Shown one piece after another: positions 26,566 through 46,560 of a stretch of DNA of 64,000 nucleotides. The first letter of the stretch is position 1. Each line of letters starts with the position of its first letter. A program made the position numbers and the translations under genes. This DNA comes from Candidatus Brocadia pituitae (GTDB lineage Bacteria > Planctomycetota > Brocadiia > Brocadiales > Brocadiaceae). Below the pieces are notes generated by a model, which was given only the letters and a program-made list of their open reading frames with translations, did no database searches and was not told the origin of the DNA. Where the stretch lies: contig AP021856.1 in NCBI GenBank assembly GCA_017347445.1, positions 2,984,613 to 3,048,612 on the forward strand. Direction: 5' to 3'.

Positions 26566-27930
26566 TTATTCTTGTCCTCGTAAGCATGCCGTAAAGATCT
26601 TTTTCAATCCGTCAATGACATAAAGCGCTTCGTCAGTCTTGTGCTTTATGATTAAATGCTCTTTACCCTTTTTCACTAAACTATCAGCCTTTGTAAATAA
26701 TTGATATTGCCTTTTATTAAATACCACGGGTCTCATGGGTTTATAGACAGTAGCAAATTCCTGCACCAGCTTCTTGTTTAAATCGCCGAGGCCGTCCTTG
26801 TTCAGTGCGGACAGGAAACTCGCTGGTTGTTGAATCATGGATTCGACCCGAGATTTGTCCAGGATTGCAGGCAGGTCGCATTTATTCATAACGGGAATTA
26901 TCGCATGGACAGATTCCCGTTGTGGTGCATCGCCGGGGGCTTCCGGTAGAAGCCATGCATGTAAGGTGCGCAGGATTTCATCGTCTTCCTTGTCAAAAGG
27001 TCTTGAGTTGTCGAATACCGCAATTACCTTATCGGCGCGCCGAAGTTGTTCCTGCGTTATATCAATGCTCAAGGCCTCCAGCTCGTCACCGGCCTCGCGT
27101 ATGCCAGCCGTATCTACCAACTCAAAGGGGATACCATCAACCGAAATAAACTCGCTTACATAATCCCGCGTTGTTCCTGGTTCATGATGCACCAGCATCC
27201 GCTCTTCTCCCAAGATAGCGTTGATGAGGGTCGATTTACCCACATTGGGCTTTCCCAGGATCACCAGGACTTGTGGCATAGTCAATGCCATGCCGAAAGA
27301 TGCCGTCTCCAACAACCCCCGAACAAGTTTGGTCAGGAAAGAAACGCATGTGTCATTGTGACAAATTTCACCTTCCCGGAAAAAGTGCCCTATCTCCTCA
27401 ATGATTTCCAACCCTTGTTTCAGTACCCCTGACAATGCCCCGGCATATTGATCCAGCAACACCTTTACACCTAGCCTTGTCCGTGCGTGGACGATTTCCT
27501 GAAGCGCCTCTCTTTGGACAAAATCAATTCTGGCGTGCTCAAAGGACTGTGATACTAATGAATTCCACGGAGCGCCTTCTGCACCCGCAGACTGCATGCA
27601 TTCATAAATACGCATCAGGACGCGAATCCCACCGTGACAATTTACTTCTACTACATCTTCTCCGGTGAAACTGTCTTCCTGCTTTATGACATGTACAATA
27701 ACCTCATCAATCTTCTGCCCGCGCTCCTCGATATGCCCATAATAGAGCCTTTGACTCGCAGCCTCCGTCAGATCGGCAATCCCTTTTCCCTGAAACACCT
27801 TGCCGACAATCCCCAGGGCATTCCAACCTGATACAAGAATCTTGCCGATGCCACCTTCACCTAAGGGAGTCACCAGGGACGCTATCGCCTTCCGGTCTTT
27901 ACGTGTATCTGTTTTTTGTCCGTCTATCAT
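26566..27930 (-). CDS. mnmE: tRNA modification GTPase MnmE
   Basis: 454 residues, the family's usual length. It acts with MnmG to install the carboxymethylaminomethyl group at wobble uridine. The N-terminal folate-binding domain (SLVTPLGEGGIGKILVSG; GEDVVEVNCHGG) is followed by a G domain with GKPNVGKST (G1), DTAG (G3) and NKCD (G4). The C-terminus reads FTACLRGQE where most MnmE proteins end with the catalytic Cys in FCIGK; the Cys is kept but the tail is altered. It is convergent with glyQ. Confidence 0.95.
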   Translation of the reverse strand: MIDGQKTDTRKDRKAIASLVTPLGEGGIGKILVSGWNALGIVGKVFQGKGIADLTEAASQRLYYGHIEERGQKIDEVIVHVIKQEDSFTGEDVVEVNCHGGIRVLMRIYECMQSAGAEGAPWNSLVSQSFEHARIDFVQREALQEIVHARTRLGVKVLLDQYAGALSGVLKQGLEIIEEIGHFFREGEICHNDTCVSFLTKLVRGLLETASFGMALTMPQVLVILGKPNVGKSTLINAILGEERMLVHHEPGTTRDYVSEFISVDGIPFELVDTAGIREAGDELEALSIDITQEQLRRADKVIAVFDNSRPFDKEDDEILRTLHAWLLPEAPGDAPQRESVHAIIPVMNKCDLPAILDKSRVESMIQQPASFLSALNKDGLGDLNKKLVQEFATVYKPMRPVVFNKRQYQLFTKADSLVKKGKEHLIIKHKTDEALYVIDGLKKIFTACLRGQE

Positions 27931-28008: not shown

Positions 28009-29184
28009 CTATTTCCCCTTTTGCCTTTGGTGATACAACGGCGACATCTCCCGCAGGCGTTCAATGGTAGGGGGAAGTTTTTCCAGGATATATTTGACAT
28101 CCTCGCCGGAATTGTCAATGCCTAAGCTAAAAAGCACGGTGCCCTGGGCAAGGGCAGCGTCAACACCGGTAGCCATAATAACATGTGACGCCTTCAGTGA
28201 TCGTGACGTGCAAGCAGAACCGCTGGAAATCGCAATACCCTGCATATCGAGGAAGAGCAATATCGATTCCCCTTCAATATACTCAATACACAAGCTCAGG
28301 TTACCAGGGAGATGATTCTTTGGATGGCCATTTACATAGACATGATGAATATGCTGTAATATCCCGTCTCTTAACAGGTTTCTCAAGGTTTGAACCTTAT
28401 CCATGCGTTGGGGCATTTCGGCCTTTGCCAGCTCTGCCGCCTTACCCATGCCCACAATGCCGATAATATTTTCCGTCCCCGCCCTGCGTCCACCCTCCTG
28501 TACTCCACCTTCCAGGAAGGGAAGTATCCTCACGCCTTCCCGTACATATAATGCCCCAATCCCTCCCGGTCCATAGAATTGATTTGCAGACATGCTCAGG
28601 GCATCGACCTGCACATCCCTGACATCGATTGGGATATTTCCTGCTGCAGCAACGGCATCAGAATGGAAAAGGATTCCCTTTTCTTTGGTAAATGCCCCGA
28701 TTTCTTTTATTGGCTCAATCGTTCCGATCTCTCCGTTGGCATACATGATGGACACCATGGTTGTGGTATTTTTCACGGCCTTTTTAATGTCATCTGGATT
28801 TACCATCCCATATTTATCAACAGGTAAATAGGTAACTTCGTACCCCGATTTCTCTAGTGATTTTAAGGGATTTAGCACGGAAAAATGTTCGATTTGCGTG
28901 GCAATAACATGGTTCCCCTTTTTTTTATGTGCAGCAAGTATGCCTTTCAGGGCAAAATTATTGGCCTCCGTGCCGCTAGACGTGAATACGATCTCATTTG
29001 GTTTTGCGTTAATAAGACCGGCGACCTGTCCCCGCGCTGACTGAATAGCATCGCTGGTAGCCCTTCCGAATTGATGGAGATTCGAGGGATTGCCAAACCC
29101 ATCCTTTAAAAATGGCAGCATTGCCTCGATAACTTTCGGGTGTATGGGCGAACCCGATACATTGTCCATATATATTTTTGTCAT
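28009..29184 (-). CDS. Cysteine desulfurase homologue (NifS/IscS type) without the PLP lysine
   Basis: 391 residues, class V aminotransferase fold. The active-site Cys loop is present (SSGSACTSRSLKASH) as are TSSGTEANNFALKG and IEHFSVLNPL. The PLP-lysine motif, SxHKxxGPKG in IscS, reads SANQFYGPGG here, so the Schiff-base Lys is Gln and the preceding His is Asn. HSDAVAAAGN also lacks the Gln that contacts PLP. I checked these codons on the DNA (28570-28600). It may be a scaffold for iron-sulfur assembly or use PLP differently; some archaeal IscS proteins also lack this Lys. No iscU-like gene lies nearby. Confidence 0.85.
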   Translation of the reverse strand: MTKIYMDNVSGSPIHPKVIEAMLPFLKDGFGNPSNLHQFGRATSDAIQSARGQVAGLINAKPNEIVFTSSGTEANNFALKGILAAHKKKGNHVIATQIEHFSVLNPLKSLEKSGYEVTYLPVDKYGMVNPDDIKKAVKNTTTMVSIMYANGEIGTIEPIKEIGAFTKEKGILFHSDAVAAAGNIPIDVRDVQVDALSMSANQFYGPGGIGALYVREGVRILPFLEGGVQEGGRRAGTENIIGIVGMGKAAELAKAEMPQRMDKVQTLRNLLRDGILQHIHHVYVNGHPKNHLPGNLSLCIEYIEGESILLFLDMQGIAISSGSACTSRSLKASHVIMATGVDAALAQGTVLFSLGIDNSGEDVKYILEKLPPTIERLREMSPLYHQRQKGK

Positions 29185-44127: not shown

Positions 44128-46560
44128 TTATCTTGCTTGATACCCCGGATACAAATCAGGACCCTGGATGTTATCCCACTGTGCACCAATATCAATCCAC
44201 TCGACAAACAAATACCTCTCGTCCTGCGTGAGGAACTTGTCATGCATTACCCTTCCCTCAACCGGGAATACACCGTCTCTCGGACTAAACTGACTCAATG
44301 CCGTCTCATACAGCCTCCAGATTAACAAGCTGTTGATGGCAGAGGAAGGATTAACATACTTCCCTCCAAGATTCGTGTCCTTGCCCCTCTGCGGCGCAAG
44401 TAAACTGTTGTATGCACGGCTGAATGCCGACACTCCATCCACACCCACTAACTCCGCTCCACCCGATAAGTCCAGCGGACTGCCTGCATTATGGCAGCTT
44501 GCACACTTCACATCGATGATCGGCTGAAGATCCCTGCGGAAATCCACCGTCCTCCTCTTCTCATCCGTTAAACCTTCCACCGGCTGAGACGTCGTTCCTG
44601 ACGGACCTCCATAATACACGTCCGAAGGCACCACCACGTCATCCCCATGCTTTACCCCCTGATAGATACCACTCCTGTCAAACTTCAGGTATCCAAACGC
44701 AAAAGGTGAATCATAGTGACTCCGGTCATCATACCACCAATTGTACAACGCCTTCGTATGCTGATTCTGGAATGCCCTGCCACGGTATGACCCATCATGA
44801 CATCCACTGCATATCCTGCCATGATACGGCCTTAAATACGCCCATGTCAGCGCTGTCTGCACTGCCATTCCCCTCTCATCAAGGTTCTGGATGTAGTATG
44901 ACGTGTCTGCCGTCTGAGACGTTACCACAGAACCATCATCCTCCACATACTGATAACCGATGATCCGCCTCTGCTGGAACGCCGTTCCTGAGTTACTGCT
45001 CGACCGGCATCCACCCAAAAGATGACTGCCTGCACCAACCTTAAACCGGGATGCATCCGGCTCTACCGCCTGCACTCCCTGCACAATTCTTACCGCCTTC
45101 ACATCACCACGCTTCGTATCCTTCGCCTTCTGATGCGGATACGGTCCTACCGGAAGATCCGTCAGCGTCGTGTCAAAACAAATCCACGTAGCCCACGAAT
45201 GCGGATACCCTTCCACCTTCACCTGATCAAACGGCTGATACGTCACCGTCGTTACCCCAAAGTTCTTTCCCGCCGTAAAGGTGTTTATCCACCTCGGCTT
45301 GTACTTCACATAAATCGGCGCCGGCTGATGATCGTTCCACTCAGGATCATTGTGCACCAATTCCCCTGCCTTACCATTCTTGCAATCAAACCAATAAATC
45401 CCAAAATCACCACGCTCCGCATACGACACCAACATCCTGTCGTCCGGAAGCGGATACGGACTCCGGTACAATCCACCATCATCCTTCGTCAGTCTCTCAT
45501 AGGTCTTGTTATACGGCGCATCCCAACTGACTGATGCCAGCTGACCTACTCCCCAATTCATATACGGAGACTCTACATACACCAGCTTCCTTTCTCCAAA
45601 CGTGATCTTGGCCTGTGACTTGCCACATGCACCGCCAATCTCATCATCACAGTTTCCATAGATCGGTCTCGGATACGCACCGTCCCAGTTATCCACACAC
45701 AGCATTACCCTGCCCTTTCCGCCTGCCCTGCTGCCATTGGCCTGCGTGCTGGAGAACAGGATGTTCCCATCCGGCGTCGTCGTCGGATCAAAGTTGGAAC
45801 TGATGTTGTAGGTAATCTGGTCTATCGTCGTGTTTATGCTCGGAAACTCTATACCCGACAGCACATGACCCGTAATTCTCTCCGTCACGTGACCGCCCTG
45901 GGTATCCAACCTGAACAGGTTATACGCATACGGATTATGAAGCTCATCCATGACGCCGTCCGGAGAACCAGCAAAGATGATGAACCCGGTCTTCTCTACC
46001 GTGCCACGTTCCTTCCAGTCTCCTTCAAAATACCGGTCACGCCATATGATGCGACCCTGTCCTTCCTCAATACTGCCTGCTGCATAATAGATCGGCGACC
46101 GGCATGTCCCCTTATAATCAGTCATCTGCCTCAGACCACTGCCGTCTATGTTCATCTCCCATATCTGGCATCCGCCGCCCTTCTTGTGTACTCCAGCAAA
46201 CGCAAACTTCTTACCGTCCCAATACGTGCAAGGATCAAAGGCCGTCGCAAAATCATTCGTCAACACCTTCAATTCCTTCGTATTTAAATTGTACAACACG
46301 ATCCGGCTACCCTCTGACACATAGTGCGGATAATTCTGATACGGATCGCCCTTCGCCGTCCTCGGTGACTGCGTGAACAACAGCGCATCCACCGGACCCT
46401 GCACTTCCTTCGACATCCCGCTATAATCAGTCCATAAGGCCTTTCCCTGCTTCGAACCACCTACCATTACCTGGTTGCCCGATGCAAAGACGCTCCCACA
46501 GACCAACGCTCCTGCCATGATCGCAGACGCAACCACTCCTCCTATTTTCCTCTTACTCAT
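44128..46560 (-). CDS. hzsA: Hydrazine synthase alpha subunit
   Basis: 810 residues from ATG 46560, with AGGAGAAGG upstream; the longer frame to 46599 has no ribosome site. It is the dihaem catalytic subunit joining hydroxylamine (from NO) and ammonia to hydrazine inside the anammoxosome. A signal peptide (about 1-27) is followed by an N-terminal propeller-like region (LYNLNTKELKVLTNDF, IWEMNIDGSGLRQMT). The haem sites are CSGCH (584-588) and CASCH (686-690). Tyr592, four residues after the first haem His, corresponds to the unusual Tyr591 haem ligand of Kuenenia. It is the last gene of hzsC-hzsB-hzsA, 92 bases after hzsB. Confidence 0.97.
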   Translation of the reverse strand: MSKRKIGGVVASAIMAGALVCGSVFASGNQVMVGGSKQGKALWTDYSGMSKEVQGPVDALLFTQSPRTAKGDPYQNYPHYVSEGSRIVLYNLNTKELKVLTNDFATAFDPCTYWDGKKFAFAGVHKKGGGCQIWEMNIDGSGLRQMTDYKGTCRSPIYYAAGSIEEGQGRIIWRDRYFEGDWKERGTVEKTGFIIFAGSPDGVMDELHNPYAYNLFRLDTQGGHVTERITGHVLSGIEFPSINTTIDQITYNISSNFDPTTTPDGNILFSSTQANGSRAGGKGRVMLCVDNWDGAYPRPIYGNCDDEIGGACGKSQAKITFGERKLVYVESPYMNWGVGQLASVSWDAPYNKTYERLTKDDGGLYRSPYPLPDDRMLVSYAERGDFGIYWFDCKNGKAGELVHNDPEWNDHQPAPIYVKYKPRWINTFTAGKNFGVTTVTYQPFDQVKVEGYPHSWATWICFDTTLTDLPVGPYPHQKAKDTKRGDVKAVRIVQGVQAVEPDASRFKVGAGSHLLGGCRSSSNSGTAFQQRRIIGYQYVEDDGSVVTSQTADTSYYIQNLDERGMAVQTALTWAYLRPYHGRICSGCHDGSYRGRAFQNQHTKALYNWWYDDRSHYDSPFAFGYLKFDRSGIYQGVKHGDDVVVPSDVYYGGPSGTTSQPVEGLTDEKRRTVDFRRDLQPIIDVKCASCHNAGSPLDLSGGAELVGVDGVSAFSRAYNSLLAPQRGKDTNLGGKYVNPSSAINSLLIWRLYETALSQFSPRDGVFPVEGRVMHDKFLTQDERYLFVEWIDIGAQWDNIQGPDLYPGYQAR

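Follow-up and report, generated by a model that had tools for sequence, protein, structure and literature searches.

Ever since its structure was determined, the role of the lysine-less IscS of archaea has been puzzling. The protein of Archaeoglobus fulgidus is described in PMC7585200 as having no desulfurase activity and as supplying a cysteine ligand, and the same account describes IscS1 of Methanosarcina acetivorans as lacking the catalytic lysine and as being paired with IscU. In E. coli, the IscU and TusA sites of IscS are reported to be adjacent, and the cysteine of TusA to lie 4 A from Cys328 (PMC11302665).

The window that we analysed is a stretch of 64,000 nucleotides from the genome of Candidatus Brocadia pituitae, which is a single contig (C1) of 4.08 Mb. 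The window encodes an IscS homologue (Table 1) which, judged by its sequence, is the bacterial counterpart of the lysine-less IscS of A. fulgidus and belongs to a known kind. Our main reading, to which we give a probability of about 0.6, is that it is a desulfurase-dead IscS kept as a partner of IscU, and that its Cys325 would take sulfur from TusA for IscU, ligate the cluster, or do both.

We take K206, H205, Q183, R354 and C328 to be the numbering of the key residues of E. coli IscS, with R354 binding the substrate carboxylate and the other roles as given in Table 1, and this numbering was transferred to the window protein by means of conserved motifs. The window protein has DALSMSANQFYGPGGIGALYV where group I cysteine desulfurases carry S-x-H-K. 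The preliminary description had read this motif as SANQFYGPGG, the glutamine that contacts PLP as an alanine and the catalytic cysteine loop as intact, and the codons, which are clear on the DNA, confirmed each of these readings: the Schiff-base lysine is replaced by Gln202, Gln183 by Ala179, and the loop SSGSACTS is complete around Cys325. Two losses came in addition to those already described, His205 being replaced by Asn201 and Arg354 by Leu351; Asp176, His100, Asn150 and Thr237 are retained. Cysteine desulfuration by the window protein is very unlikely, because both the Schiff-base lysine and the substrate arginine are absent.

Table 1. Coordinates, within the window, of the iscS homologue and of the codons at its active-site positions
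Feature	Positions	Strand	Codon	Basis or corresponding site
Lysine-less IscS homologue	28009..29184	-		ORF and translation, 391 aa
Gln202	28579..28581	-	CAA ('ttg' on + strand)	Site of K206, the lysine that forms the Schiff base with PLP
Asn201	28582..28584	-	AAT	Site of His205
Ala179	28648..28650	-	GCT ('agc' on + strand)	Site of Gln183
Leu351	28132..28134	-		Site of the substrate-carboxylate Arg354
Cys325	28210..28212	-	TGC ('gca' on + strand)	Sulfur-carrying loop cysteine, site of C328

We searched 59 genomes of the order, and the loci fetched from them gave 70 aligned class-V rows of at least 330 residues once six shorter fragments had been dropped. The lysine is missing from 55 of these 70 rows, which ruled out chance or a sequencing error as the explanation of its absence. 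A check of the homologues, which the preliminary description had proposed, found the glutamine at this site conserved in 42 of the 55 lysine-less rows, while the other 13 carry threonine (nine), proline (two), alanine (one) or serine (one) and never a lysine. The Gln183 site is an alanine in 55/55 of the lysine-less rows, the His205 site is an asparagine in 40, the Arg354 site is a leucine in 40, a threonine in 13 and a histidine in two, and the cysteine, aspartate and histidine are all kept in every one of them. Among the 13 NifS/IscS-like rows of the order that have the lysine, Gln183 is present in 13 and the arginine in 12, the remaining row being truncated at that point; the last two of the 70 rows are distant class-V enzymes, which also have the lysine. 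Thr72 and Thr237 are kept, or nearly so, in the family, and the loop cysteine is present in all 168 distinct lysine-less sequences of the wider survey given below.

The NG86 dN/dS ratio of the window gene was 0.035 to 0.069 against its relatives (six of eight congeners or family members gave a defined ratio), and it was 0.037 to 0.086 among the same relatives. The window gene is under strong purifying selection, since these ratios are about 0.03 to 0.09. A decaying pseudogene would account for the missing catalytic residues and for an iscS that stands apart from its operon partners in the host, but it is hardly credible when the ORF is full-length, dN/dS is so low and the cysteine is kept in 168/168 sequences, and we rejected it on the grounds of selection and conservation. 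The earlier proposal of a sulfur-handling scaffold rather than a PLP enzyme is supported, as far as sequence goes, by the residue losses, the conserved cysteine and the purifying selection.

Comparison with family models placed the window protein in Aminotran_5 of Pfam (264.8 bits), and its best NCBIfam equivalog was NifS TIGR03402, for which it scored below the cut-off (515.2 against 530.75 bits); the cut-off of IscS TIGR02006 was also missed (404 against 643.2 bits). An AlphaFold2 model, made from an input alignment of lysine-less sequences only, had a pLDDT of 87.3 and a pTM of 0.87, with low values at the cysteine loop and at residues 225-236, and VIA-align of this model against human Nfs1, E. 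coli IscS and A. fulgidus IscS gave Z of 51-54. Some lysine-less aminotransferase-fold enzymes bind PLP or PMP without a Schiff-base lysine, and the window protein might be a PLP or PMP protein of different chemistry, with its cofactor bound in this manner. The fold is intact in the model and Thr237 is kept or nearly so, and a cofactor may be bound, because the PLP site retains Asp176, His100 and Thr72. However, Arg354 is lost in 167 of the 168 lysine-less sequences and the lysine is replaced by ten different residues (Q, D, T, R, P, E, M, A, L and S), which argues against a shared new catalytic residue and makes a different PLP chemistry improbable.

Within the order, most genomes of the family to which the window belongs (f1) carry an iscS-iscU-tusA operon, often with a Uma2-family gene after iscS. 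Among the 29 distinct loci of f1, IscU was found within 1.5 kb in 25 and TusA within 1.5 kb in 22, and several of the misses were contig ends. Two further families of the order have the pair or the trio intact (iscS-iscU-tusA at L051 and L052, iscS-iscU at L053). Family f4 contains two lysine-less paralogues: the clade-A paralogue adjoins uvrD and had neither IscU nor TusA within 1.5 kb at any of its 11 loci, and the second had neither within 1.5 kb at any of its 12. The second f4 paralogue (L054-L065, with T, P or S at the lysine site) has a thioredoxin adjoining it at 12/12 loci and a CcdA-like membrane protein at 10/12.

Hydrazine synthase alpha (PF18582) is present twice in the host genome, one copy being in the window at about 44794-45108 (-), and the host is therefore an anammox bacterium; PF18582 was found in 38 of the 59 genomes of the order against 0/14 control genomes. 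A second desulfurase with the lysine, which the preliminary description had suggested looking for, was found as an intact NifS (Gln, His, Lys, Arg and Cys) directly following a three-domain NifU in a nifU-nifS operon, so that an ordinary desulfurase is available to this cell. A third class-V protein of the host genome is more distant and carries GHKG. The intact NifS is 47% identical to the window protein, from which it differs by having Lys, Gln, His and Arg and by adjoining NifU. Class-V enzymes are dimers, and this identity would fit a dead subunit that heterodimerises with NifS and tunes it, but the relatives of the window protein are linked to an IscU of their own and NifS-NifU form a separate operon, for which reasons we regard such a heterodimer as very improbable.

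The IscU partner gene is not adjacent to the window iscS (C1:3012621-3013796). A Uma2-IscU-TusA block without iscS (Pfam Uma2, NifU_N and TusA) is located at C1:3230303-3231584, corresponding to 6304-7585 of L102, with IscU at C1:3230891-3231322 and TusA at C1:3231342-3231584, which puts IscU-TusA (at about 3.231 Mb) roughly 0.2 Mb from the window gene; a rearrangement has therefore split the operon in the host genome. As to a possible MIS-type pair, an IscS-like and an IscU-like gene are both present in this genome but apart.

The gene beside iscS in the window (26566-27930, -) encodes a divergent MnmE paralogue that ends in CLRGQE, without the C-terminal FCIGK motif; another MnmE of the host genome ends in FCIGK (L076). 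With the paralogue as query, matches were found in 36/39 genomes of the order at E <= 1e-40. A functional link between iscS and this paralogue was considered and rejected: near the iscS of the relatives, a single weak MnmE-like match (L095) was seen among the examined loci, and the adjacency in the window therefore looks incidental.

We then extended the survey to other bacteria and to archaea. A scan of named genomes seeded with A. fulgidus IscS2 gave 80 loci, and the same losses were found with an aspartate at the lysine site in Bathyarchaeota, Thermoplasmatota and Rokubacteria, with a glutamine or a proline in Dehalococcoidia and Smithella, and also in an unplaced bacterium and in a Nitrospirae bacterium (with an arginine at the lysine site). 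Wider searches added 115 loci (30 from 343 genomes, 30 from 246, 30 from 245 and 25 from 250), and because these are the best-scoring loci only, the linkage fractions given here are not population frequencies. One linkage rule (one TusA profile, 1.5 kb, same strand) was applied to all 266 distinct IscS/NifS-like rows, one of which was gapped in the count of residue states.

The results of this survey showed that TusA was adjacent in 120 of the 168 lysine-less rows and in 6/7 rows that keep the lysine but have a changed Gln183 or Arg354, against 0/90 rows in which all three residues are intact. IscU or NifU was adjacent in 132 of the 168 lysine-less rows and in 59 of the 90 intact ones. By kind, TusA was adjacent in 46/52 rows with an aspartate at the lysine site and in 50/61 of the other lysine-less rows from outside the order. 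A DsrE-family gene (confirmed with Pfam DsrE and DrsE_2) was found within 2.5 kb in 59/168 lysine-less rows against 0/90 intact rows, and none was found within 2.5 kb of a lysine-less iscS in the anammox order. The partner IscU retains its cysteine motifs, and CPxP is kept in 115 of 125 TusA sequences. Counts of the SPLY motif were set aside, the regular expression having missed 39/168 sequences, and the count of a zinc-ribbon neighbour family was discarded after its profile had drifted to 260 hits.

The Fisher test on the TusA table (p = 3e-34) assumes independent rows, and the rows are related. A tree-aware test of the TusA link (two of 58 rows dropped for want of a record) was not significant, and its sign test cannot reach significance because the tree offers only two independent contrasts. 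The TusA association is confounded by ancestry. In the Nitrospirota rows L255, L258-L261 and L140, the lysine is kept, Gln183 is replaced by Met or Cys and Arg354 by Leu or Gln, and the genes adjoin IscU and TusA; these proteins are possible intermediates, and they suggest that the substrate-binding residues were lost ahead of the lysine. A further row of the class with the lysine kept and Gln or Arg changed, L077, is a distant enzyme that keeps the arginine and is without TusA. One lysine-less row, L169, has a leucine for the lysine, keeps the glutamine and the arginine and is without TusA, and could represent an independent event or an error.

The phylogenetic position of the two groups was determined on a tree built without the signature columns. 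On this tree, lysine-less proteins of the archaeal type formed one clade (SH-aLRT 99) beside the intact enzymes of archaea (98), and the lysine-less proteins of bacteria formed another with their lysine-keeping relatives (SH-aLRT 99). A further tree gave the same split between archaea and bacteria with supports of 93 and 95. The best tree therefore has two origins, as the same losses, each with TusA, occur in two clades that stand apart. Forcing a single origin cost 13.8 log units and was not rejected by the AU test (p = 0.285; 58 chosen rows), so that convergence from two origins is favoured, not shown.

The main rival to our reading is a pure scaffold or ligand, in which the window protein shapes IscU and gives a cysteine ligand, free sulfide is the source of sulfur and tusA serves tRNA thiolation or Moco synthesis. 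The A. fulgidus IscS is a precedent for it, as described in PMC7585200, and at the locus of the crystallised A. fulgidus IscS2, IscU is present and no TusA was found within about 4 kb. It keeps its place as main rival because sulfide alone is reported to feed IscU in anaerobic E. coli lacking IscS (PMC13015791). However, among the surveyed rows the adjacency of TusA is confined to genes with lost substrate residues, and it occurs in the archaeal clade as well as in the bacterial one; we consider a pure scaffold unlikely.

In the reading that we prefer, an IscS-type protein of fold-type I, without desulfurase chemistry, would be retained for its partnership with IscU, the scaffold of Fe-S assembly. 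Cys325 would be charged by persulfidated TusA, in effect the IscS-TusA step of E. coli run backwards, and would then hand the sulfur to IscU, and/or serve as a ligand of the nascent [2Fe-2S] cluster, the role that it has in the IscS-IscU structure of A. fulgidus. The sulfur of TusA could come from the NifS of the same cell or, where DsrE-type proteins are present, from inorganic sulfur through them; in some lineages these sulfurtransferases would join TusA in the supply. The loss of activity, the complex with IscU and the direction of transfer from TusA through Cys325 to IscU are what we infer here, as is the assignment of the unlinked IscU-TusA pair as the probable partner of the window IscS in the host genome. 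That the relatives usually adjoin IscU and tusA genes suggests that cluster sulfur comes from a carrier and not from cysteine, and the linkage is compatible with TusA as the donor or, equally, as the acceptor. This reading is weakened by the f4 loci that have neither partner gene nearby, by the distance between the window iscS and IscU-TusA, by the A. fulgidus IscS2 locus, where no TusA was found within about 4 kb, by the confounding with ancestry and by the retained residues of the PLP site.

More tentatively, and with somewhat less confidence than an even chance would give, the data could reflect a widespread route to Fe-S clusters in anaerobic bacteria and archaea, with no cysteine desulfurase acting at the scaffold. 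It would be made up of a dead IscS together with IscU and TusA and, in many cases, DsrE proteins, a system in which the arginine and the glutamine were lost before the lysine and which arose at least twice. Sulfane sulfur of TusA, drawn from an inorganic or separate pool, would pass along this route to the loop cysteine of the dead IscS and from there to IscU.

What appears to be new is the wide spread of lysine-less IscS in anaerobes, the joint loss of its substrate residues, the lysine-keeping intermediates and the link to tusA. Among titles and abstract openings of the open-access literature, we found none on TusA linked to a lysine-less IscS, which makes the novelty provisional, and none on a lysine-less IscS in anammox bacteria. 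The tusA linkage in archaea and bacteria offers a concrete and testable donor for the missing sulfur. It suggests that cysteine is not the direct sulfur source of IscU in many anaerobes, anammox bacteria included, and many genes annotated as cysteine desulfurases probably do not encode one.

Comparison with the known systems showed that the window protein resembles A. fulgidus IscS2 (PDB 4eb5, 4eb7 and 4hvk), with 46% identity, a replaced lysine and a kept cysteine, and A. fulgidus IscS2 is paired with IscU as are the relatives of the window protein; the two proteins differ at the lysine site, which is Asp199 in A. fulgidus and Gln202 in the window protein. The likeness to the archaeal lysine-less IscS, which had been drawn in the preliminary description, held for the shared losses (Gln to Ala, His to Asn and Arg to Leu), but the best trees place the two in separate clades, with the reservation of the AU test given above. 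A. fulgidus has two lysine-less IscS copies in its genome, and the other copy lies in a tusA-dsrE-iscS-iscU-dsrE operon (L299 3190-6365 (-), in an A. fulgidus-like genome). The likeness to IscS1 of M. acetivorans is drawn from its published description, and IscS1 is archaeal whereas the window protein is bacterial. The minimal iron-sulfur (MIS) system MisS-MisU is similar in being a two-gene pair of an IscS-like and an IscU-like protein (PMC12442378), but MisS is described as a type I cysteine desulfurase, whereas the window protein is without those residues and is TusA-linked in its relatives. The same fold (Z about 52) recurs in the E. coli IscS-TusA and IscS-IscU systems, which bring together partners of the same three types. 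Active IscS donates sulfur to TusA in E. coli, whereas persulfide formation from cysteine is not expected of the window IscS, and the flow of sulfur would therefore be reversed with respect to E. coli.
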